Below are positions 1 through 43,816 of a DNA stretch of 64,000 nucleotides, one piece after another (the first letter of the stretch is position 1; every line of letters starts with the position of its first letter). A program made the translations under genes and the position numbers. The stretch covers positions 1 to 64,000 of the forward strand of contig CAIUOU010000122.1 of assembly GCA_903900845.1 (NCBI GenBank). The letters run 5' to 3'. Under the pieces are notes generated by a model. That model had not been told where the DNA came from. It searched no databases and was given only the letters and a program-made list of their open reading frames with translations. Origin of the DNA: an uncultured Opitutia bacterium (GTDB lineage: Bacteria > Verrucomicrobiota > Verrucomicrobiia > Opitutales > Opitutaceae).

Positions 1-3000
1 CACGACGATGTCGGGATCCACGCCCTGTCCCTCGATGATCCAATTGCGTCCGTCCTTGGAGTAGGGGGCGAACTCCGGCTTGCGCAGCTCGCCACCGTCG
101 ATGAACGGCAGGGAGTTGGTGATGCCGACCACGCCGCCCCATGAGCGTTTGCCGATGAGCTTGCCGAGGCCGTGTTCGCGGAAGCGGTAGGGGAAGAGGT
201 CGCCGTCGGAGGCGGAGTACTCGTTGAGGAGGGTGACCTTGGGGCCGAGCAGCATCTGCGACGGATTCGTGTTGGGAGTGCCGCCGCGGCGCACGCTCAC
301 CATGGCGAGCTCGCGGCGGAGACGCTCGATGATCTGCGGGGAGACGTTGCCGCCGCCGTTGCCGCGCACGTCGATGATGAGCGCCTGGCGGTTGAGCTGC
401 GGGTAGAAGCGGCGCACGAACTCGTTGAGGCCCTCCGGTCCCATGTCGGGGATGTGAAGGTAACCGACTTTCCCGCCGGTCTTGGTGGCCACGTGGTCGA
501 TGTTCCGCTGCACCCAGCTCTCGTAATAGAGCGGCGCCTCATCGGCGATCGGCACCACGGTGACGTCCCGCGCCCCTTCCTCGACGGGCCGCGAGTTCAC
601 CCGCAGCACCACCTGCTGGCCGGCGGTGCCGGCAATGGCGGCGTAAAGGTTCTCGAGGTCGGCGGTGCGCTTGCCGTCGACCGCGAGGATGTAGTCGCCG
701 GTGCTGACGTCCACGCCGAGTTCCGTGAGGGGGGAGCGGGTCTTCGTCTGCCAGTTCTCGCCTCGGAGGATGCGGTCGATCCGGTAGGCGCGGCTCGCCG
801 GGTCGCGCGACACCTGCGCCCCGAGGAGGCCGAGCTTGAGGCGCGGGGCGTTCTCGCGGTCGCCGCCGCCGACGTAGGCGTGGCCGGCATGAAGCTCGGA
901 TATCATCTCGCCGATGACGTAAGTGAGGTCGTTGCGGGTCGCCACGTGCGGGAGCATCGCGCGGTATTTTTCCCGCTGCGCCGGCCAGTCGACGCCGTGC
1001 AGGTTCGGGTCGTAGAAGAAGTCGCGCATCTGGCGCCAGCTCTCATCAAGCATCTGGGCCCATTCGGCCCGGCGATCCACGCGCGCGGAAAGATTGGCGA
1101 GATTCAGCCGCGTCTCGGGCTTCAGCTCCACCTTCGCGGAGGGCAGGTCGATGATGGAGTAGTCGCGCCCGGCGGAAACCAGCACTTTCTTCCCGTTGGC
1201 CGTGATCTCGAAGACCTCGAAGTTGCCTAGCTCGGTCTCGCGCTTCGCCTTCAGGTCGTAGGCGGCGATCACCGCCCGCGAACTGCTGGCGCCGCCGAAG
1301 CCTTCGCCTCCGCCTCCGCCACCCACGGCTCCGCTCGGTACCCTGCGGTAATAAACGCGGTCACCCACCAGTCGCAGGTTGCTGTAGTTCGACGGCGTGA
1401 TGGGCAGGCTGATCACGCGGCCGGACAAGCCTTCGGCGTCCACTTTCACCACGACCTTGGCTTCGGGCTTGCGGCTCTCGGCTTTGCCCGCCGGCGCCTC
1501 GTCGGCGGACTTCTTTTCCTCGCCGCCTTTTTTCTCGGCGTCGGCCTTGGCGGGTTCGTCCTTGGCGATCGCCACCTCGTCGCTCTTCGGTGCGAAAGGC
1601 GAGGGGGTGTCCTTGGCCAACGCCACGAGGTAAACGCGCTCCATGTCCTTGTAGGCGTGGTTCCACTCGGTGTCGGAGTAGATCGGGCGATAGTCGCGGG
1701 CCGAGGCGAACAGGAGCCACTTGCCGTCGTTGCTGAAGGCAGGTGCGGTGGCGTCGTACCAGCCGTCGGTCACCGCGATCGTTTTCTTCTCCGCGAGGCC
1801 GTGCAGCATGACCTTGGCGAGCGTGCCGCGCTCGTTGCGGGTCCAGGTCACCCATCGGGAGTCGGGTGACCACGCGGACTGCATGATCGGGCCGTCGGGA
1901 TTCTCGTCGATGGTCGTGACCTCCTTCGAGGCGACGTCGATGACCCGCAGCCGTTGGGCGCGGTCGGACCAGAGGAGCTTCTTCGAATCGGGTGACCAAG
2001 CCGGCGTGTAGTAGTAGGTGGCGGCGCCGGAAGTGAGTTTTTCGGCGGGGCTGCGGCCATCCTGGGCCTGGATGTAGAGCTCGTTCTCGCCCGAGGCGTC
2101 GGAGATGAAGGCGATCCAGCGGCCGTCGGGCGACCATGACGCGCCCCGGTCGTGCACGCCGGAGGTCTGGGTGAGGTTGCGGACCGGACCTTCCTTCGCC
2201 GGCAACGTGAACACGTCACCCCGGGCGACCACCACCGCGCGTTGGCCGTCAGGGGAGGGGCGGACCGAGTTGACGAACTTCGATACATTCTGGATCCCCG
2301 GCCGGAGGGAGGGCAGGTCCTCGCGCACCGAGATGGCGATCGCCTGGGTACGCTCCGTGGCGAGGTCGAGTTTCCAGATGCGGCCCGCTTGCTCGAAGAC
2401 GATCGAGCCCTTGCCGATCGACGGGAACTTCACGTCGTAGTCGGTGAACTCGGTCACCTGGCGGGTCTGCTTGGTGGCGAGGTCGTAGCTGAAGAGGTTG
2501 GCCCGCGGCGTGCGCTCAGAGACGAAGTAGATTTTTCCGTTGGGTGCCCACATTGGCAGGATGTCCTGCGCCGGGTGGTTGGTGATATTCTCGGTCGCGC
2601 CCGTGGCGGGATCGAAGATCCAGACGTCGTCGGCCATGCCTCCACGGTACTGTTTCCAAGTGCGGAATTCCCGGAAGATGCGGTTGTAGGCGAAGCGCTT
2701 GTCGTCGGGGGCGAAACTGATGAAGCCGCCTCGCGGCACGGGCAGCTGGGCGGGCACGTCGCCGTCGAGCCCCACGGAGTAAAGCTCGCCGATGAACGGG
2801 TTGAACGACCGCCAGCGGGAGCGGAAAACGACCTCCGGAGCCGTGTTACGCCACGTCATCACGATGTTGTTGGGCCCCATGCGGTCCGCCAGGTCGTCGC
2901 GTTCGAGGGTGGCCGAGGTGGTGAGTCTCTTTGGGACGCCACCGGTTGCCGGCATGACGTAGACCTCGGTGTTGCCGTCGTACTGGCCCGTGAAAGCCAG

Positions 3001-3238
3001 CTGGGAGCCGTCGGCCGAGAAACGCGGGAAGATCGCGTACCCCGGGCCGTCGGTGAGGCGCCGCGCAGTGCCGCCGGCTAGCGGCGCGGTGTACAGCTGC
3101 CCGGCGTAGCTGAAGACCACGGAGGTGCCGTCGGTCGCCGGGAAGCGGAGCAGCCGGGTCTCATCCGCGGCGGGTTGGGCGGCGAAGGCCGCGGTGAACA
3201 GGGTGATCGCGAGGGCGGGGAAATACCAGGGGCGCATC
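1..3238 (-). CDS. Tricorn-like S41 protease, 3' end cut by the window
   Basis: Secreted tricorn-type peptidase that would degrade peptides in the periplasm. The ATG at 3238 opens a signal peptide (MRPWYFPALAITLFTAAFAA). A TolB/WD-like beta-propeller follows (about residues 25-540) with repeated SPDGR/SPDSK motifs, then a Lys/Glu-rich linker (about 555-590). A core domain contains ELHAGHAYVGG (about 786), matching the tricorn catalytic His region, with Gly where tricorn has Ser before the His. A PDZ-like segment (about 800-880) and the S41 domain come next, with GNGGGNV (about 959) and NEYSASDGD (about 1008) holding the nucleophile Ser-Asp. At least 1079 residues are present; family members are about 1,080-1,110, so only the extreme C-terminus, probably including the last catalytic Glu, is missing. 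Monocistronic as far as visible. Confidence 0.9.
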
Positions 3239-3505
3239 GTGCCAACAAAGCCGGCCCTTCCGGGTCCGCAATCCGTTAGATGTCCGGTGCCCCATCCTCC
3301 CTTCGCCGGAATCCGGCCGGAAGTGGAGTTTGAGATTTCCCTTGCTTACCGTTCCGACCGGTGCAGTTTCCGGCCGTTCGATAGAGACAGCGTTAGATGA
3401 CAGTTTCTGGTGAGTCGTTGGCTGAGCGTTTGGCTTAAGTGATGATTTCGAAACCCAATGGTGGGAACGGACTGGCAGCGACGAGGGATCTACGAATCAT
3501 CATAA
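3239..3505. other. Divergent intergenic region, protease / RRM gene
   Basis: This 267-bp gap between divergent genes must hold promoters for both, including the long 5' leader of the RRM protein gene. I see no reading frame with coding character, no tRNA and no clear operator. The last 100 bases are less GC-rich than the surroundings. No clear Shine-Dalgarno precedes the ATG at 3506. Confidence 0.5.
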
Positions 3506-3892
3506 ATGAGTAACTCCAAACTGTACGTTGGAAACCTGTCGTTCAAGACGACCGAGGACGAGCTCCGCTCGACCTTCGGTCAGTTCGGCTCGGTCACCGA
3601 CGTTTACGTCGCCATGGACAAGATGACCGGCCGCCCCCGCGGTTTCGCGTTCGTCACCATGGGCACCGCGGAAGAGGCGAAGGTCGCCGCGGAGAAGATG
3701 AATGGCGTCGATCTCGGCGGCCGTCAGCTGACGGTCAATGAGGCCCGCCCGAAGGAAGATCGTCCGGCCGGCGGTTTCGGCGGCGGCGGTCGCGGCTTCG
3801 GTGGCGGCGGCGGCGGTCGCGGCTTCGGCGGCGGCGGCGGTGGTGGCTACGGTGGTGGCGGCGGCCGCGATCGCGGCGAGCGCCGTTACTGA
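3506..3892 (+). CDS. Glycine-rich RRM RNA-binding protein
   Basis: Small single-RRM RNA-binding protein of 128 residues, of the glycine-rich type common in cyanobacteria and Verrucomicrobia. RNP2 is KLYVGNL (residues 5-11) and RNP1 is RGFAFVTM (about 45-52), with the aromatic residues that stack on RNA. After about residue 85 the chain becomes a Gly/Arg/Phe low-complexity tail ([10 protein letters not shown] repeats), typical of RNA chaperones and phase-separating proteins. It is followed by a strong intrinsic terminator and then by an RNA helicase gene, so the pair may act together in RNA remodelling, for example in the cold. That last point is inference. Confidence 0.93.
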
Positions 3893-3924
3893 GCCGTTGC
3901 ATTCCACAGCACGGTAATTTCCAG

Positions 3925-3963
3925 GGACGAGGCTCCGCTCCGGGGCCTCGTCCTTTTCTTTTT
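3925..3963 (+). terminator. Rho-independent terminator after the RRM gene
   Basis: A perfect 9-bp stem, GGACGAGGC (3925-3933) with GCCTCGTCC (3945-3953), has an 11-nt loop and is followed by TTTTCTTTTT. It lies 32 bases after the RRM stop codon. The helicase ATG at 3979 is only 15 bases past the T-run, so the helicase must have a promoter within or upstream of the terminator, or depend on read-through. Confidence 0.85.
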
Positions 3964-3978
3964 CATCTGTAGACCTTC

Positions 3979-5211
3979 ATGCCTTTTCGCGCTCTCAACC
4001 TATCCGACCCCGTGTTCCGCGGCGTGCAGGCCGCCGGTTACACCGAGCCCACGCCGATCCAGCTGCGGGCCATTCCCGTCGTGCTTGGCGGCGGTGACCT
4101 CATCGGTTCCGCCCAGACCGGCACCGGCAAGACCGCGGCGTTCGCGCTGCCCATCCTTTCGCGCCTCGGCGCCCATGCCCGCGGCCGTCAGCCGCGCGTG
4201 CTGGTGCTGGAGCCCACCCGCGAACTCGCGGCGCAGGTCGAGACTGCCTTCCGCGATTTCGCGCGGTTCACGGACCTCCGAGCCTTGGCCGTTTTCGGCG
4301 GCGTCGGTTACGGCCACCAGCGCGCCGAGCTCAGCCGCGGGGTCGACATCATCGTCGCCACCCCGGGCCGGCTGATGGACTACCTCAAGGACGGCACGCT
4401 CTCGCTCCGCGACATCTCCGTGCTCGTGCTCGACGAGGTCGACCGGATGCTCGACATGGGATTCCTGCCGGTGGTGAAGGATATCATCGCCCGCTGCCCG
4501 AAGAACCGGCAGACGCTTTTCTTCTCCGCGACGGTTCCGCCCGAGATCCAGGCGATCGCCTCGTTCGCCCTGCGCAATCCCACCCGGATCGAGGTGGGGG
4601 TGAACCGCTCGGTCAACCAGTCGGTCAATCACGCGGTCTACCCGGTGTCGTTCGAGCAGAAGTTCGACCTGCTGGTCGCACTGCTCGCGCAGGCCAACTT
4701 CGACTCCGTACTCGTTTTCTCGCGCACGAAACACGGGGCCGACCGCATCGCGCGGCGGCTGAAGGCCGCCAACCACAGCGTCGCCGTGTTGCACGCCAAC
4801 CGTTCCCAGAACCAGCGCATCGAGGCGCTGGCGGGCTTCAAGAGCGGCAAGTACGAGATCATGGTGGCCACCGACATCGCCGCGCGCGGCATCGACGTCG
4901 CTGGCGTGACGCACGTGATCAACTACGACGTGCCCGAGAATCCCGAGGACTACGTGCACCGCATCGGCCGTACCGGTCGTGCGCAGGCGGTGGGCGACGC
5001 CTTCACGCTTGTGACCCCCGAGAACGCGCAGGATGTGCGCGACATCGAGCGCTTCATCGGCCAGAAAATCCCCGAACTGCGGCTCGAGGGCTTCGATTAC
5101 AAGCCGCTCGCCCCGCGGCCGCCGCAGTCGGCGCCGGAAAAAGTCCGCGGCATGCCGGCGGGCACGCTCCGTCCGCGCAGCGGCTTCCGCCGTTTCCGTA
5201 GCCGCCGCTGA
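3979..5211 (+). CDS. DEAD-box ATP-dependent RNA helicase, RhlE type
   Basis: Two-domain ATP-dependent RNA helicase of 410 residues. It shows a Q motif (TPIQLRAIP, about 25-33), Walker A AQTGTGKT (45-52), PTRELA (79-84), TPGR (128-131), motif II (152-155), SAT (183-185), the ARGIDV motif and HRIGRTGR near 330. The short basic C-terminal tail (SGFRRFRSRR) is typical of RhlE. Motif II reads DEVD rather than DEAD: the Mg/ATP-coordinating D-E and the final D are kept and only Ala is changed to Val, so activity is expected. RhlE-type helicases act in ribosome assembly and RNA turnover. It lies just downstream of the RRM protein and 9 bases before a DNA glycosylase gene. Confidence 0.95.
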   Translation: MPFRALNLSDPVFRGVQAAGYTEPTPIQLRAIPVVLGGGDLIGSAQTGTGKTAAFALPILSRLGAHARGRQPRVLVLEPTRELAAQVETAFRDFARFTDLRALAVFGGVGYGHQRAELSRGVDIIVATPGRLMDYLKDGTLSLRDISVLVLDEVDRMLDMGFLPVVKDIIARCPKNRQTLFFSATVPPEIQAIASFALRNPTRIEVGVNRSVNQSVNHAVYPVSFEQKFDLLVALLAQANFDSVLVFSRTKHGADRIARRLKAANHSVAVLHANRSQNQRIEALAGFKSGKYEIMVATDIAARGIDVAGVTHVINYDVPENPEDYVHRIGRTGRAQAVGDAFTLVTPENAQDVRDIERFIGQKIPELRLEGFDYKPLAPRPPQSAPEKVRGMPAGTLRPRSGFRRFRSRR

Positions 5212-37913: not shown

Positions 37914-38714
37914 ATGGCACGAGGTTACCCTATACCTGCCGGGACGCTTTACTCGGCGGGACCTTCCGCTTCCGGTTCGTCTCCGGTCCCGCCTGCCACG
38001 TGTGACAGTGTGCGTTACCAGACCGGAGATAGGATCCGTGGTCGGCTGGCGCTCGCGCTGTCGCTGTCGCTTTCGCTCCATCTCGCCCTCCTTCTGGGTG
38101 TGCGGCGCCCGGCGCCAAATACGGCCCCGGCTGCTCCGGCGGAAAAGATCGCAGTGATGCTGGCGCCCCCGCAGGTGAAGGAGCTGGAGGAGGAGCCGGA
38201 GCCGGCTTCGAACCACGGCGACGAGGCGCCGCCCGATCTCGCGTTGCCGGTGCCGATGCAGTCAGACGTGCCGGGCATACCGCGGCCGGACGATTTCGTG
38301 CAGGCGCTTGATTTCTCTTCGCTGCTCGAGAAGCCGGACTTGGGTGACGCGCGCATTTCCGTTGTTCCGGAGAATATCCGACGCGGGTTGGAGCTACGTT
38401 CGCGCATCGGCGCCATCTTCAGCATCGCGGAGCTCGATCGGCACCCCGAAGCGGTCGTTCAGGTGGCGCCGGTATTCCCCTTCGCCCTCAAGCGCGATCG
38501 GGTCGAGGGGCGCGTGGTGGTTGAGTTCGTGGTCGACACCGACGGTCGCGTAGTCGGCGCGGCGGCGGTCGAGAGTTCGCATCCGGGGTTCGAGGAGGCG
38601 GCCGTCACGGGTGTGGGACGCTGGAAGTTTCGTCCCGGGCAGAAGAACGGTCGTCCGGTCAACACGCGGATGCGCGTGCCGATCCTCTTCCGGCTGGCGA
38701 ACACGGAGCTGTGA
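37914..38714 (+). CDS. TonB family energy transducer-like protein
   Basis: A 266-residue TonB-like protein. A single hydrophobic segment (LALALSLSLSLHLALLLGV, about residues 45-63) would anchor it in the inner membrane. A Pro/Glu-rich periplasmic stretch follows, then a TonB C-terminal domain: PVFPFALKRDRVEGRVVVEF, VDTDGRVVGAAAVESSHPGF, AAVTGVGRWKFRPGQKNGRP, VNTRMRVPILF. The cytoplasmic N-terminus is longer than usual and its start is uncertain; a GTG further in is possible. No exbB/exbD genes are adjacent. The gene is bracketed by the two copies of a 31-bp repeat. It may energise TonB receptors such as the one at 30131. Confidence 0.85.
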   Translation: MARGYPIPAGTLYSAGPSASGSSPVPPATCDSVRYQTGDRIRGRLALALSLSLSLHLALLLGVRRPAPNTAPAAPAEKIAVMLAPPQVKELEEEPEPASNHGDEAPPDLALPVPMQSDVPGIPRPDDFVQALDFSSLLEKPDLGDARISVVPENIRRGLELRSRIGAIFSIAELDRHPEAVVQVAPVFPFALKRDRVEGRVVVEFVVDTDGRVVGAAAVESSHPGFEEAAVTGVGRWKFRPGQKNGRPVNTRMRVPILFRLANTEL

Positions 38715-38804: not shown

Positions 38805-39377
38805 TCAGGATTTCGGACGGAAGAACGCCGCCGTGGGTTGGCGGGCGCCCTTACCGAGGCGTTTCACGAGGCTCCAGCCCGCGGGCGCGAGATCGAGTTC
38901 GCCCGGCAGCTCAAAGACGACAATCGCCGAGGGCCGGCCGGCGAATAGAGAGGTCAGTCGCTCGAAGAGCATCGGCGCGACCTCCGGGATGATCTCGTAG
39001 GGCGGATCAATGAACACCAGATCGGGCACAGGCCCGGGCGGGGCGGCGGCGATCTGGAGGGCATCGGCCTGCGTGACGCTGAGATCCGCGGCGCCAATCG
39101 CGCCGACGCTGCGGGCGACCGCTTCGATGTTCTGTCGGATGCAGGCGGCGGCGCGGGCGTCGCGCTCCACGAACAAACCTCCGGTGGCGCCACGACTGAA
39201 GGCTTCCAACCCATAGGCGCCGCTGCCCGCGAAAAGATCGAGGAAACGCGCTCCAGAAATCGCGGCAGCGAGGCTGGAGAAAACCGCTTGGCGCAGGCCG
39301 TCGGTCGCCGGGCGCACACGGTCGCCCTTGGGCACCTTCAGCTCGATCCCACGGGCCTTCCCTCCGCTGATTCTCAT
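38805..39377 (-). CDS. rsmD: 16S rRNA (guanine-N2) methyltransferase RsmD family
   Basis: SAM-dependent methyltransferase of 190 residues expected to methylate G966 (E. coli numbering) of 16S rRNA. It shows the family start MRISGGKARGIELKVP, VRPATDGLRQAVFSSL, motif I FLDLFAGSGAYGLEAFSRGA, and motif IV LVFIDPPYE. Length and domain order are normal. It faces the TonB-like gene across the repeat copy. Coding runs to within a few bases of that repeat. Confidence 0.92.
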   Translation of the reverse strand: MRISGGKARGIELKVPKGDRVRPATDGLRQAVFSSLAAAISGARFLDLFAGSGAYGLEAFSRGATGGLFVERDARAAACIRQNIEAVARSVGAIGAADLSVTQADALQIAAAPPGPVPDLVFIDPPYEIIPEVAPMLFERLTSLFAGRPSAIVVFELPGELDLAPAGWSLVKRLGKGARQPTAAFFRPKS

Positions 39378-39657
39378 CGGGCGGGGAAGGCGCGTAGGCG
39401 CGAACGGAAGTTGGCGGGATGCGACGTCATTCGGTTGCCCCTACCTCGCGCGTGGGCGGCTATTTCTTCAATCCCGTTTCCCGAATCGCTCGAATCGGGA
39501 ATCGGCGCTCTCGGTGAAACATAGCGTTTGCGCGGCGGTCAGGAATGGCCAACGTTCTTCCATTCGGCGCCTCACAGTGCACCGCATCACGCGTGTATGG
39601 GTGTGCGGGCGTCGGCGTATATTTTAAACCTTTCTGAAAAAGGGCTTTACGATTTTT
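39378..39657. other. Leader region of the MCE operon
   Basis: This 280-bp divergent spacer includes a hairpin with TTCCCGA/TCGGGAA arms (39478-39501). An unusually AT-rich TATATTTTAAA at 39618-39628 could be a -10 region for the MCE operon. No convincing -35 is visible at the right distance. It also contains the AAAAAGG stretch upstream of the first gene. Confidence 0.45.
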
Positions 39658-41166
39658 ATGCTCGCCGCCGGCATTCCCTTTGCCGGCACGGAGGTGCGTG
39701 CACAGATCGCGATCCCTGCCACGGGCACCACGACGCGGGAGGTCAACGCATGGCCCTTGTCCGTGTCTCGTCCGGGAAACGCGGCTGCGGCGCAGGCCGA
39801 TGCGCGCCGGGGTGGCCTTGGTCCGTTTGTTTTCTCTGGTCCGGCCGGTGGCGAGGCGGGCGGAACGGCCAGGGGTATCCGTCCTTTTTGGGTCGAGTTC
39901 CGCGATCCGGCGGGCGGCTTCCGGTCTGCGCACATCCTCTATCCGTTGTTCAATTATGCGGAGGATGGCGGCAACTACCGCTGGAGCCTCCTGGAGCTCG
40001 TCCGTCGCGAGGGCCGGCTTGCGGGTGCGGGGGCGCCCGAAGTTTTCGATGCCCGGCATCGCTTCGAGGTCACGCCTTTCTGGTTCGAGCGGGAGTTTGA
40101 AGATCCGGCTTTGAACTATCGCGCGCTCTTCCCGGTTTTTGGAACGGTTCGGCAAAAGTTCGGCTTGGAGCGCGCCTCCTGGGTCTTTTTCCCGTTCTTT
40201 GCCGAGGTGGAGCAGCGGGGTGCCGTCACGACTTACGCGCCGTGGCCGTTGGTGCGCACCACCAGTGGTGCCGCTCGCGGCTGGGGTGTCTGGCCGCTCT
40301 ACAGCACCGTGGAACGCCCGGGTGAAATGTCCGCCACGCATGTGCTCTGGCCACTCGGCCACGACGTGGTCCGGCAACCCGGTCCCGATGATCCGCCCGG
40401 CACCGCGCCGCGGCACGACACCGCTTTCCTGCCGTTCTACAGCCGGAGCATCGGGCCGGGGTATGTGAACGAGACCTTTTTCTGGCCGTTTTTCGGCTAC
40501 ACGGAGCGCACCGCGCCCGTCCGCTATTCCGAGCAGCGTTACCTCTGGCCGCTGCTCGTGCAGGGCCGGGGCGACGAGGCGCAGGTCAATCGCTGGGCGC
40601 CGGTCTACAGCCACTCGGTCATCAAGGGTCAGGCGAAGTGGTGGTACCTCTGGCCGCTCGTTCGACACATGGAATGGGAGGAAGAGGGCGTGGACCGTGC
40701 GCGCAGCCAGCTGCTTTATTTTCTCTACTGGCACGAGTCGCAGCGCGCGGCGGGCCGCGCCGATGGTCCGGCCGCCACGCTCACCCATGTCTGGCCGCTC
40801 TTGAGCCACTGGGAGGATGGCCGCGGCCGGCGCCAATGGCAGTTGCTGAGTCCGCTCGAGGTCTTCCTGCCGGGCAACGTGAAGGTGCGGCAGGCGTGGT
40901 CGCCGTTGTTCGCCCTCGCGCGTCACGAGGATAACGCCGCCGGGGGCGCGCGGACCTCATTGCTCTGGGATGCGGTCACGTGGGAGCACCTCCCCGCCGA
41001 GAACCGGACTGAATTCCACCTCGGGCCGCTGTTCTCCAGCGTGCGTGCGGGGGATTTCCGCCGGCTGGCGTTCGGCAACGGTCTGCTGGGCCTCGAGCGG
41101 TACGCCCGGGGCGGCTGGAAATTTTTCGCGCTCCGCTTTTCATCCCCGCCTTCCGATGGCCGCTGA
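39658..41166 (+). CDS. WPL-repeat protein, first gene of the MCE operon
   Basis: A 502-residue protein that I do not recognise as a named family. It contains many spaced repeats of about 20-35 residues centred on aromatic-WP(L/F) motifs: ILYPLFNY, ALFPVFG, VFFPFFAEV, APWPLVR, GVWPLYSTVE, HVLWPLGHD, TFFWPFFGY, RYLWPLLV, WWYLWPLVRH, HVWPLLSH, AWSPLFALA, HLGPLFSSV. Alternating aromatic strands suggest a beta-propeller or barrel. The annotated ATG follows an in-frame hydrophobic-compatible stretch (KKGFTIFMLAAGIPFAG, ending VRAQ), so a start a few codons upstream would complete a signal peptide. Its end overlaps the MlaE permease gene by 11 bases, which strongly ties it to lipid transport. Confidence 0.75.
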   Translation: MLAAGIPFAGTEVRAQIAIPATGTTTREVNAWPLSVSRPGNAAAAQADARRGGLGPFVFSGPAGGEAGGTARGIRPFWVEFRDPAGGFRSAHILYPLFNYAEDGGNYRWSLLELVRREGRLAGAGAPEVFDARHRFEVTPFWFEREFEDPALNYRALFPVFGTVRQKFGLERASWVFFPFFAEVEQRGAVTTYAPWPLVRTTSGAARGWGVWPLYSTVERPGEMSATHVLWPLGHDVVRQPGPDDPPGTAPRHDTAFLPFYSRSIGPGYVNETFFWPFFGYTERTAPVRYSEQRYLWPLLVQGRGDEAQVNRWAPVYSHSVIKGQAKWWYLWPLVRHMEWEEEGVDRARSQLLYFLYWHESQRAAGRADGPAATLTHVWPLLSHWEDGRGRRQWQLLSPLEVFLPGNVKVRQAWSPLFALARHEDNAAGGARTSLLWDAVTWEHLPAENRTEFHLGPLFSSVRAGDFRRLAFGNGLLGLERYARGGWKFFALRFSSPPSDGR

Positions 41167-41977
41167 AACCTCCAACCCTCCCGAGGAGAACGAATCGATC
41201 CTCACCTCCGCTCCCAGGCAGGCGGTGCGGCCGTTCTTGCGCGTGCTCGAGGGGATCGGCAGCTGCCTTAGGCTCCTTCTCGAGGCTGCACGCCACATCC
41301 CCACGCTGCCGCGGCAATTCGGCCGGTTCATCGAGCAATGCTATCTGATCGGCTACACCACGCTCCCGATCGTCGCTATCCTCAGCTTCTTCATCGGCAG
41401 CGTGCTCGCGCTGCAGTCGGGCTACGCGGCCGCCAACATCGGCCCGAAGCAGTTCATCGGCCTACTCGTCGGGCTCTCCATGGCGCGCGAGCTCGGGCCG
41501 GTCATGGCGGCCGTGCTTCTCGCCGGCCGCGTGGGCTCGGCCATCGCCGCGGAGCTCGCCTCCATGAAGGTCTACCAGGAAATCGACGCGCTCGAGACGA
41601 TGAATATCCCGCCCGCGCGCATGCTCGTGCTGCCGCGTCTGGCGGCCGTGCTCGCGATGATGCCCGTGCTCACGATCATGTCCGACCTCGTGGGCTGGTT
41701 CGGCGGCGCGATCGTCGCGAAATACACCCACTTCATCTCCATCGAGCCCGCGTCGTACTTCGCGACCATGCGGCAGTACATGGATTTCGGTGACGTCCTC
41801 AACGGCCTCGTGAAGGCGGAGATCTTCGGCTTCGCCGTAGTGCTGGTCTGCTGCAACATCGGTCTGAACACGCGCGGCGGTCCGCGGGAGATCGGCGCCT
41901 CCGTGACGCGCGCGGTCGTCACCTCCCTCATCCTCATCCTCGTGCTGGATTACTTCGTCACGAAGGCGCTGATGTGA
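41156..41977 (+). CDS. mlaE: MlaE-type ABC permease of the MCE lipid transporter
   Basis: Integral inner-membrane permease of 273 residues for lipid transport between inner and outer membranes. Conserved features are FIEQCYLIGYTTLPIVAILS, FIGSVLALQSGYAAANIG, GLSMARELGPVMAAVLLAGR, AAELASMKVYQEIDALETMN (the coupling region) and the terminal LDYFVTKAL. The ATG at 41156 lies inside the WPL-repeat gene, and the stop overlaps the GTG of the ATPase gene (GTGA), so three genes are translationally coupled. The order permease, ATPase, MCE protein matches mlaE-mlaF-mlaD, in a different order from E. coli mlaFED. No mlaB, mlaC or mlaA is seen here. Confidence 0.92.
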   Translation: MAAETSNPPEENESILTSAPRQAVRPFLRVLEGIGSCLRLLLEAARHIPTLPRQFGRFIEQCYLIGYTTLPIVAILSFFIGSVLALQSGYAAANIGPKQFIGLLVGLSMARELGPVMAAVLLAGRVGSAIAAELASMKVYQEIDALETMNIPPARMLVLPRLAAVLAMMPVLTIMSDLVGWFGGAIVAKYTHFISIEPASYFATMRQYMDFGDVLNGLVKAEIFGFAVVLVCCNIGLNTRGGPREIGASVTRAVVTSLILILVLDYFVTKALM

Positions 41978-42786
41978 GCCCCGCCATGAACCCCTCCGCC
42001 TCCGTCACCTCCCCCCGCCAGGGTTCCGCCGCCGTGGGGGTTTCCGTCGAGGGTCTCTCGAAGGACTTCAGCGGTTTTCCGGTCCTGCGCGGCATCTCGC
42101 TGACGGTTAACCCGGGCGAGATCTTTGTCCTCATGGGGCCCAGCGGGTCCGGCAAAAGCGTGCTGCTCAAGCACGTCGTCGGGCTGGAGCGGCCGAGCGC
42201 CGGCCGCGTCCTCGTCGACGGTCACGACGCCGCCGACCCCGCCACCCGCGGGCGCGTGCGCATGGCGCTCGTTTTCCAGGCCGGGGCTTTGTTCAACTCG
42301 ATGACGGTGTACGACAACCTCGCGCTGTACCCGCGCGAGCACCGGCTCGGCACCGAGGCCGCGATCCGCGACAAGGTCATGCGGTCGCTGCAAATGCTCT
42401 CCTTGGAGAACGCCGCGGGGAAGGTCCCCGCCGAGCTTTCCGGCGGCATGCGCAAGCGCGTCGCCATCGCCCGCGCGCTCGTGATGGAGCCGCAGCTCAT
42501 GCTCTACGACGAGCCCACCAGCGAGCTCGACCCGGTGATGTCGGCCACCATCTCCGAGGTCATCGCCACCCTGCGCGAGCAGTACCATGTGACTTCGATC
42601 GTGGTTTCGCACGATCGCGACCTCGCCCTCGGGATCGCCGACCGCGTCGGCATCCTCATGGGCGGCCGGCTGGTATCGCTCGGCCCGCCCGCCGACCTGC
42701 GCGCACCGTCCGACCCCCGCGTCGCCGATTTTCTCAATCCCAGCATCGACCTGCGGAACCCCCGCTTCCGCCGGCTCGCGGGTTGA
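41974..42786 (+). CDS. mlaF: MlaF-type ABC ATPase of the MCE lipid transporter
   Basis: ATPase of 270 residues that powers the MlaE permease. Motifs: Walker A GPSGSGKSVL, Q-loop VFQAGALFNSMTV (characteristic of MlaF), signature LSGGMRKRVAIARAL, Walker B LMLYDEPTSELDPV and H-loop VVSHDRD. The GTG at 41974 has GAAGG seven bases upstream and overlaps the permease stop; ATG 41986 lacks such a site. No C-terminal MlaB-binding extension is obvious. It is followed by mlaD after 37 bases. Confidence 0.93.
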   Translation: MSPAMNPSASVTSPRQGSAAVGVSVEGLSKDFSGFPVLRGISLTVNPGEIFVLMGPSGSGKSVLLKHVVGLERPSAGRVLVDGHDAADPATRGRVRMALVFQAGALFNSMTVYDNLALYPREHRLGTEAAIRDKVMRSLQMLSLENAAGKVPAELSGGMRKRVAIARALVMEPQLMLYDEPTSELDPVMSATISEVIATLREQYHVTSIVVSHDRDLALGIADRVGILMGGRLVSLGPPADLRAPSDPRVADFLNPSIDLRNPRFRRLAG

Positions 42787-42810
42787 TCCGCGCCGGAAAC
42801 TTTTAAAACC

Positions 42811-42816
42811 AAGGAG
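42811..42816 (+). promoter_or_regulatory. Ribosome binding site of mlaD
   Basis: AAGGAG lies 7 bases before the mlaD ATG at 42824. It fixes that start and is one of the few canonical sites in the window. Confidence 0.85.
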
Positions 42817-42823
42817 AACTCCC

Positions 42824-43816
42824 ATGCAAAACGCACAGCAGACCGCCCGTGTCGGGCTTTTCTTCCTCCTCGGGATGGCGCTCATCTGGGTGACTTTCGA
42901 GACCCTCAGCGGCGGGAAGATCCTCCGCGACAAGGGCTACCAGATCGTGGCCGGCTTCGATACGCTCAAGGAGCTCAAGGAGGGTGACGACGTCCGCATG
43001 GCCGGCGTGAAGATCGGCGAGGTCGCCGCCACCCGGTTGGCCGGACGCCGCGCCGAGGCCTTGCTGCGCATCGACACCCATCAGGTCATCAAAGAGGACG
43101 CCTCGGCGGTGATCATCACCAACGGGCTCATCGGCACGGCTTACGTCAGCATCGACCTCGGTTCGGATCGCGCCGGCTCCCTGAAGCCGGGCGCCGAGAT
43201 CCGTACGCGGAACACGCCCGACATCAACGAGGTCATGGCGCAGATCGGCGACCTCGGGAAGAAGCTCGAGGGCGCGCTGCAGGGCATCAGCGGCGCCTTC
43301 GCGGGCGACAGCAAGTCGCCCGGCCTCGTGCAGCGCATCGACCAGCTCGTCACCGACAACCGCGAGAACCTGAGCCGCACGACCGCCAATCTTCAGCTCA
43401 TCACCGACAAGGTGAACCGGGGCGAAGGCACGCTCGGCCGCCTGATCAACGACCCCAAGCTGCACGACGAATTGGTCGCGGGTGTCGCCGACCTGCGGAG
43501 CGGCGCCGCCCAGGCGAAGAGCTTCCTGGCGAGCGCGCAGAGCCTGGTGGACGAGGTCAAGTCCGGTCGCGGTACTCTGGGCACGCTCGTCTTCGACCAG
43601 AAGGCCGGGGACGACCTGAAGGCGTCGCTGGCTAGCCTGCGGTCGGTCTCGGACAAGATTTCCCGCGGGGAAGGCACGCTCGGGAAGCTGCTGGGTGACG
43701 AGACCCTGCTGCGTGACATGCGTTCGCTGCTGCGCAAAGCCGACCGCGCCCTCGACGGCATGGGTGACAGCGGCCCGCTCACGGCGGTCGGCGTGGTCGC
43801 CAACGGGCTGTTCTGA
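42824..43816 (+). CDS. mlaD: MlaD-type MCE domain lipid-transport protein
   Basis: Membrane-anchored substrate-binding subunit of 330 residues. One N-terminal transmembrane helix (ARVGLFFLLGMALIWVTF) is followed by a single MCE domain (about 38-120: YQIVAGFDTLKELKEGDDVR, VKIGEVAATRL, IITNGLIGTAYVSIDLG). A long periplasmic helical tail has repeated GEGTLGRLINDP, SGRGTLGTLVFDQ and GEGTLGKLLGDE motifs. E. coli MlaD is about 180 residues, so this tail is much longer; such tails in other MCE proteins build a tunnel or contact outer-membrane partners. It is last in the operon, so the WPL-repeat protein is the only candidate outer partner encoded here. Confidence 0.92.
   Translation: MQNAQQTARVGLFFLLGMALIWVTFETLSGGKILRDKGYQIVAGFDTLKELKEGDDVRMAGVKIGEVAATRLAGRRAEALLRIDTHQVIKEDASAVIITNGLIGTAYVSIDLGSDRAGSLKPGAEIRTRNTPDINEVMAQIGDLGKKLEGALQGISGAFAGDSKSPGLVQRIDQLVTDNRENLSRTTANLQLITDKVNRGEGTLGRLINDPKLHDELVAGVADLRSGAAQAKSFLASAQSLVDEVKSGRGTLGTLVFDQKAGDDLKASLASLRSVSDKISRGEGTLGKLLGDETLLRDMRSLLRKADRALDGMGDSGPLTAVGVVANGLF

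Follow-up and report, generated by a model that had tools for sequence, protein, structure and literature searches.

Genes and features of the operon

The DNA analyzed here (the window) comprises 64,000 nucleotides (nt), positions 1 to 64,000 of the forward strand of contig CAIUOU010000122.1, from assembly GCA_903900845.1 of an uncultured Opitutia bacterium of the family Opitutaceae. Our subject is an operon on its forward strand in which the gene for a protein with repeated W-P-L motifs, here called WPL, stands first, followed by the genes of an Mla/MCE lipid transporter in the order WPL-mlaE-mlaF-mlaD. The original prediction, made from the sequence of the window, had described the four genes as a tightly coupled unit, and their spacing bears this out: the WPL open reading frame (ORF; 39658-41166) overlaps mlaE by 11 nt, mlaE overlaps mlaF by 4 nt and a gap of 37 nt separates mlaF from mlaD.

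The mlaE gene (41156-41977) encodes a lipid ATP-binding cassette (ABC) transporter permease (PF02405, 5.9e-75; TIGR00056 over its cut-off) and mlaF (41974-42786, GTG start) an ATPase (PF00005, 1.5e-34), for which the NCBIfam MlaF model PRK11831 scored under its cut-off. The product of mlaD (42824-43816) is an MCE protein of 330 amino acids (aa), in which the MlaD domain (PF02470, 1.8e-16) occupies residues 37-112 and a long tail follows at residues 134-330 (43223-43813). Encoded together, the permease, the ATPase and the MCE-domain protein make this an Mla/MCE ABC transporter. The tail, whose GEGTLG repeats had been remarked on before, contains three G[ER]GTLG motifs, at residues 200, 248 and 282, and it is helical in the predicted structure, with a low predicted local distance difference test (pLDDT) score. 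Its C-terminus (43760-43813; ...GDSGPLTAVGVVANGLF) is conserved, with G317, P318, A321, G323, L329 and F330 invariant in 69 sequences. MlaD is similarly long in 70 complete relatives (329-342 aa), and a GP...G...LF ending is present in all 69 WPL-type MlaD sequences that were aligned. No gene for MlaB (STAS) lies between the operon genes; the remainder of the genome was not searched for it.

Read from the ATG at 39658, WPL has 502 aa; this start codon is uncertain, and with it the signal peptide lacks its charged portion. Read from a CTG at 39634, which is 3′ of an in-frame TAA, the gene extends over 39634-41166 and its product has 510 aa and a fuller, probable Sec signal peptide (39634-39702; LKKGFTIFMLAAGIPFAGTEVRA, then Q, the cleavage site being placed by eye). 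This in-frame stretch is similar to the signal peptide of one relative (L082; 84% identical). A possible counterpart of the start ATG of L082, located within 39595-39660, is out of frame with WPL, pointing either to a CTG start or to an indel in the assembly. A simple signal-peptide rule was satisfied by 69 of 80 WPL relatives, for which starts were picked 15-50 residues ahead of the first W[P/A] motif. Sequence thus provides WPL with an export signal that argues against a cytosolic role, and the exportless cytosolic fold that would have spoken against the original prediction was not what we found. A lipobox with a cysteine after the signal peptide is not present in the WPL protein of the window, and lipobox-like strings occurred in 5 of 80 relatives, i.e., not consistently.

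The WPL protein contains seven WPL motifs and one WPF, compared with a mean of 0.3 and a maximum of three in 2000 residue shuffles, and the count rises to 17 if looser xP[LFVIW] variants are included. The motif repeat noted earlier is therefore real, although its spacing is tighter than the 20-35 residues first suggested, with 10 of the 16 gaps measuring 16-20 residues and the others 10-63. The protein had no match in Pfam or NCBIfam, and searches with 24 diverse family members recovered no Pfam family (E 0.1), the MORN repeat included, leading us to reject MORN membership by sequence. Against NCBIfam the same 24 members gave four weak matches (E 0.023-0.041, one member each), two of which were rechecked and lay far under the curated cut-offs; one of the matches, to LA_1737 (NF047486), was made by a single member at 14.6 bits, the curated cut-off being 60. 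This match, of the LA_1737 C-terminal domain to 31 residues (102-132) of the relative L189 at E 0.023, may mark a distant relative. Sequence searches against solved structures found no WPL relative (one chance match, E 0.53), and a literature search by title and start of abstract found no description of such a protein. As the original prediction had it, WPL has no recognized family; it represents a previously unnamed protein family outside all Pfam and NCBIfam models.

Linkage of WPL to mlaE

WPL was matched in 72 of 100 genomes sampled from the family of the source bacterium (its own genome included), in single copy in all except G028, in which two fragments lie on two contigs. In at least 67 of these 72 genomes a co-directional mlaE lies 118-303 nt downstream. 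Of the other five (G024, G087, G077, G051, and G046), G024 and G087 have a sequence resembling the start of mlaE behind the stop codon of WPL (loci L010 and L031). A scan of named genome contigs produced 152 WPL relatives, the best 80 of which were retained; these overlap with the family genomes and are not independent of them. In all of the best 80, mlaE directly follows WPL on the same strand, and mlaF and mlaD are also present in 76, the other four loci ending earlier. By a simple rule, the WPL-mlaE junction is TGA-N-ATG or ATGA in 64 of the 75 cases measured. The best 80 loci are titled Verrucomicrobiota or subgroups of it, bar one titled Rubrivivax. That WPL-mlaEFD locus (L104, Rubrivivax sp.) agrees in frame length and in match range with an Opitutaceae locus (L102) and is probably a binning error.

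The linkage extends well outside the family. In the class beyond the family, WPL is followed by a co-directional mlaE in at least 47 of 57 WPL genomes; the distance is 106-389 nt in 43 of them and 849-1626 nt in the other four. Of the ten genomes without a listed downstream mlaE, two are weak WPL matches. A wider WPL profile (E 1e-5) matched 131 of the 288 genomes sampled from the phylum; beyond the class, a profile of the WPL-type MlaE located mlaE 68-663 nt downstream of WPL in 72 of 80 tested genomes, which were taken from 104 with WPL by leaving out the 24 weakest or most fragmented. The linkage in the family, named loci, class and phylum samples is evidence against WPL being a chance neighbor of mlaE, and WPL homologs lying mostly away from MCE genes, an outcome that the original prediction had named as contrary to it, is the reverse of the distribution observed.

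Several observations weigh against so close a pairing. Two of the four class genomes with a spacing of 849-1626 nt have another ORF inside it, and no mlaE was found downstream of sixteen strong WPL genes beyond the family, eight in class genomes and eight in genomes of the phylum sample. Some WPL genes without mlaE are at a contig edge (G506, perhaps G166) and others seem truly separated. These sixteen genes would suit an explanation in which WPL has no functional relation to the transporter and is co-transcribed with its genes by chance. We consider this highly improbable, since the linkage holds across many families, WPL is single copy in the family, and the three family genomes that lack WPL, MlaC, and MlaA alike (G022, G091, and G099) have a single mlaE apiece, with the long frame typical of another MCE system described below. 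As far as gene order and co-occurrence allow, WPL is paired with one kind of MlaEFD.

Near-exclusive occurrence of WPL and MlaC/MlaA

The canonical Mla system (E. coli MlaFEDB, MlaC, and MlaA) has MlaE, an MlaF-like ATPase and an MCE-domain MlaD in common with the operon of the window. Unlike it, the source genome, which is 96% complete, had no match to MlaC (PF05494) or MlaA (PF04333), in keeping with the absence of both from the operon as originally described, whereas the E. coli control was positive for both; moreover, WPL is the first gene of the operon and MlaD is about twice the length of the MlaC-associated type. Without MlaC and MlaA, this is not a member of the canonical six-part system.

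A canonical-like MlaC/MlaA type is present in related genomes, and has its own MlaE clade. In a tree of 52 MlaE proteins, for which the program flagged long branches meeting, the MlaC type (11 proteins) and a second MCE system (six proteins) each formed one clade (100/100), and the 29 WPL-type MlaE together with six MlaE of genomes with WPL elsewhere formed a third (94/80, just under the star threshold). The estimated length of MlaD is 316-332 aa at 20 of 21 WPL loci (the remaining one is cut by a contig end), compared with 152-168 aa at all 11 MlaC loci. At the loci with unlinked WPL it is 317-344 aa in four of the six, where mlaD was found. The ends of the proteins also differ, as GP[LI][ST]xxGxxxxxLF terminates 10 of 11 class-level MlaD proteins (all 11 end in LF, which is the part retained by L210), whereas a GP...G...LF ending was seen in none of nine MlaC-type MlaD C-termini examined. 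Ten WPL-less loci have an MlaEFD core with a short MlaD, and matches to MlaC and MlaA on the same contig within ~8 kilobases; MlaC and MlaA were named by Pfam at one locus of this type, L066.

Most of the family genomes have two mlaE genes. In the source genome the second belongs to a separate MCE operon (L072, contig region C110:1-9000), which at 1255-4887 contains mlaE (378-codon frame), mlaF, mlaD (361-codon frame), and an auxiliary lipoprotein (PF03886, scored at this one locus of its type), presumably PqiC-like; mlaE genes of the same clade occur in five other sampled genomes. MCE systems of the PqiABC/Mpc type with such a lipoprotein have their own outer-membrane-side protein, as we propose for WPL, although WPL itself does not match PF03886 and a lipobox is not consistently present. 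At the one locus of each that was examined, both of the other MCE systems encode an outer-membrane-side protein of their own, which leaves WPL as the most likely occupant of that position in the third.

Across the family sample the two types are close to mutually exclusive. MlaC and MlaA both scored over the cut-off in 25 of the 28 genomes without WPL vs. two of the 72 with it, and neither was found in 68 of the 72 (an MlaC match under the cut-off in G047, 22.6 bits vs. 26, was left uncounted). With ancestry ignored, Fisher's test on the 100 genomes gives p = 4e-18. The WPL-less G022, G091, and G099 mentioned above have mlaE frames of 378-405 codons, similar to that of the second MCE system, and the mlaE of G099 falls in its clade. 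In the class sample (286 genomes, family members included), where exclusion was scored with MlaC, WPL occurs in 78 genomes, two of which (G235 and G265) are weak partial matches, and MlaC in 51, with G093 alone having both. When mapped on an rpoB tree that includes 87 of the 100 genomes from the family, the two states require seven changes, at least four of them on well-supported branches, compared with 19 when shuffled; of the 13 genomes outside the tree seven had no rpoB match and six had short pieces, and one of the changes may be false, owing to the very long branch of G070. On average the traits are opposite in 3.7 of seven independent pairs, the same way in none and undecided in 3.3. WPL with a long MlaD seems to alternate with MlaC and MlaA with a short MlaD. 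The near-exclusion and the matching MlaD lengths lend support to the earlier proposal that WPL may replace MlaA and MlaC as an outer-membrane or periplasmic partner.

On the other side of the balance, G024 and G072 carry both systems, G064 has MlaA and G093 a weak MlaC alongside WPL, and the tree-corrected exclusion is underpowered and not significant (seven independent pairs, median p 0.125). The exclusion owes something to shared ancestry. Furthermore, WPL and MlaC are both absent from 158 of the 286 genomes of the class sample, which suggests that other solutions may exist. The two genomes in which WPL co-occurs with MlaC and MlaA, G024 and G072 (loci L299 and L300), could show whether the two systems work side by side.

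A second link of WPL to lipid transport lies on its upstream side, where a gene for an MMPL (lipid/RND-type) transporter is found at a distance of 51-422 nt in 23 of 55 class WPL genomes beyond the family. This gene is also present in three of eight class genomes in which WPL lies away from mlaE. Its association with WPL, together with the second mlaE of most family genomes, by which another system could serve phospholipids, is consistent with WPL-MlaEFD moving some other envelope lipid, e.g., hopanoids or other neutral lipids, with WPL as a substrate-specific periplasmic carrier or scaffold rather than a stand-in for MlaA and MlaC. We regard this as the strongest of the alternatives, albeit an unlikely one, as the near-perfect exclusion with MlaC and MlaA suggests the same job, and an MMPL ortholog was found in none of nine order genomes beyond the family and, weakly, in one of 23 phylum genomes (the source's own family was not searched for it). 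Individual MMPL frames upstream of WPL, of ~840-965 codons, are located at 853-3615 in L205, 465-3221 in L206, 710-3607 in L196, 5879-8413 in L195, and 5632-8400 in L192.

Predicted fold and proposed role

The structure of WPL alone was predicted with AlphaFold, as had been suggested, using 76 sequences. The resulting model (pLDDT 91.5; predicted template modeling score 0.82) is all-beta, having 45 strands and two short helices, with ~22 low-confidence residues at its start. The strands are 3-8 residues long, mostly 5-6, and the W-P-L motif is placed in a tight turn between two strands. In the model the residues near the WPL turns are strongly hydrophobic and the far ends of the strands are polar, so that one edge of the ribbon would be aromatic and proline-rich. 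The top structural match by VIA-align was the G-box of CPAP (4ld1; Z 13.5, 154 residues aligned, root-mean-square deviation (rmsd) 5.2), followed by MORN1 (6t68, Z 11.4) and OspA (2fkj, Z 9.7), all three of which we take to be open single-layer sheets. Foldseek also found 4ld1 (E 0.031, TM score 0.65 to target); nine other Foldseek matches with E < 0.001 were uninformative (TM < 0.2, rmsd > 20). An antiparallel, open single-layer hairpin sheet (in OspA, the central sheet) is the feature in which the WPL model would resemble these proteins. WPL differs in its motif and in being an exported bacterial protein, and the matches are limited to about residues 250-500 (~290-490 for those with Z 11-13.5). 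An outer-membrane beta-barrel was rejected on strand length, as membrane-spanning strands have about eight or more residues; OprP, OmpC, and OpdK reached only Z ~6.6 by VIA-align. Judged by the model, WPL probably resembles an open single-layer hairpin sheet rather than a membrane barrel.

For one MlaEFD system without MlaA and MlaC, the connection to the outer membrane has been explained by a barrel on MlaD. The minimal MlaEFD of Veillonella parvula has a long MlaD, no MlaA or MlaC, and is proposed to form a trans-envelope bridge; its MlaD ends in an outer-membrane beta-barrel that is described as completely absent from the MlaD of Planctomycetes-Verrucomicrobia-Chlamydiae (PVC) bacteria, and in the portions of that study consulted unidentified proteins are mentioned only as possible helpers of barrel folding (PMC10665443). 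The operon of the window resembles the Veillonella type in its elongated MlaD and in having neither MlaA nor MlaC. Unlike that type, a separate beta protein, WPL, is encoded and the tail of MlaD is modeled as helical. The MlaD model comprises a membrane helix, the MCE strands and the low-confidence tail, with helices to residue 329. No strand of three or more residues was predicted past residue 129 and a C-terminal barrel was not seen, a result to be read with caution given the low pLDDT of the tail; going by this model, the operon is not a Veillonella-type trans-envelope system. WPL is a widespread, operon-linked candidate for what takes the place of the barrel reported absent from PVC bacteria (PMC10665443, in part).

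From these data we favor, with moderate confidence, a reading in which WPL is the dedicated exported partner of one long-tailed MlaEFD clade in Verrucomicrobiota, doing the work of MlaC and MlaA. WPL would fold as a chain of ~20 beta-hairpins that together form an open single-layer sheet, its aromatic W-P-L turns lined up on one edge. Its location would be periplasmic or on the periplasm-facing side of the outer membrane, where it may contact the long helical tail of MlaD at its conserved C-terminus and pass glycerophospholipids, in whichever direction transport runs, between the outer membrane and the MlaD tunnel. A single extended beta protein would, by this means, stand in place of the shuttle MlaC and the outer-membrane lipoprotein MlaA of the short-MlaD system. 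A widespread candidate that is linked to the operon and alternates with MlaC and MlaA makes the question of the outer-membrane connection directly testable, and it provides two comparable systems within a single bacterial family.

A different function, in which WPL is a structural or assembly factor that clamps the long MlaD tails, or steers them through the periplasm or towards peptidoglycan, with no lipid contact, is suggested by the MORN-like ribbons among its nearest folds, which are described as protein-protein interaction modules (PMC7725318, in part). The same source, in part, reports an interaction of trypanosome TbMORN1 with individual phospholipids, though none with vesicles (PMC7725318), and strongly hydrophobic residues adjoin the WPL turns of the model; both speak against such a factor, neither of them decisively, and we judge it improbable, and more so than a system for another lipid. 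The phospholipid interaction of TbMORN1 is a lead for work on WPL, rather than evidence for its function.

The favored role as a partner of MlaD could take a more specific form, in which WPL is itself the lipid conduit, its ribbon of ~45 strands running along or beyond the MlaD tail and single phospholipids passing along the aromatic-proline edge. We put this forward as speculation of rather low probability. Fully extended, the ribbon might reach ~200 angstrom (45 x 4.8). If true, it would span the periplasm as a bridge of a different kind from the LptA jelly-roll, the TamB groove or the MCE tunnel, and would add a third way of joining MlaEFD to the outer membrane. Chloroplasts provide a precedent for an MCE transporter, TGD1-2-3, with a separate outer-envelope beta protein, TGD4, which is a membrane barrel; the strands of WPL, mostly 5-6 residues in the model, set it apart from TGD4.

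Immediately upstream of the operon, at 37914-38714 and 38805-39377, Pfam identifies genes for a TonB C-terminal protein and a divergent Cons_hypoth95 (RsmD-like) methyltransferase.

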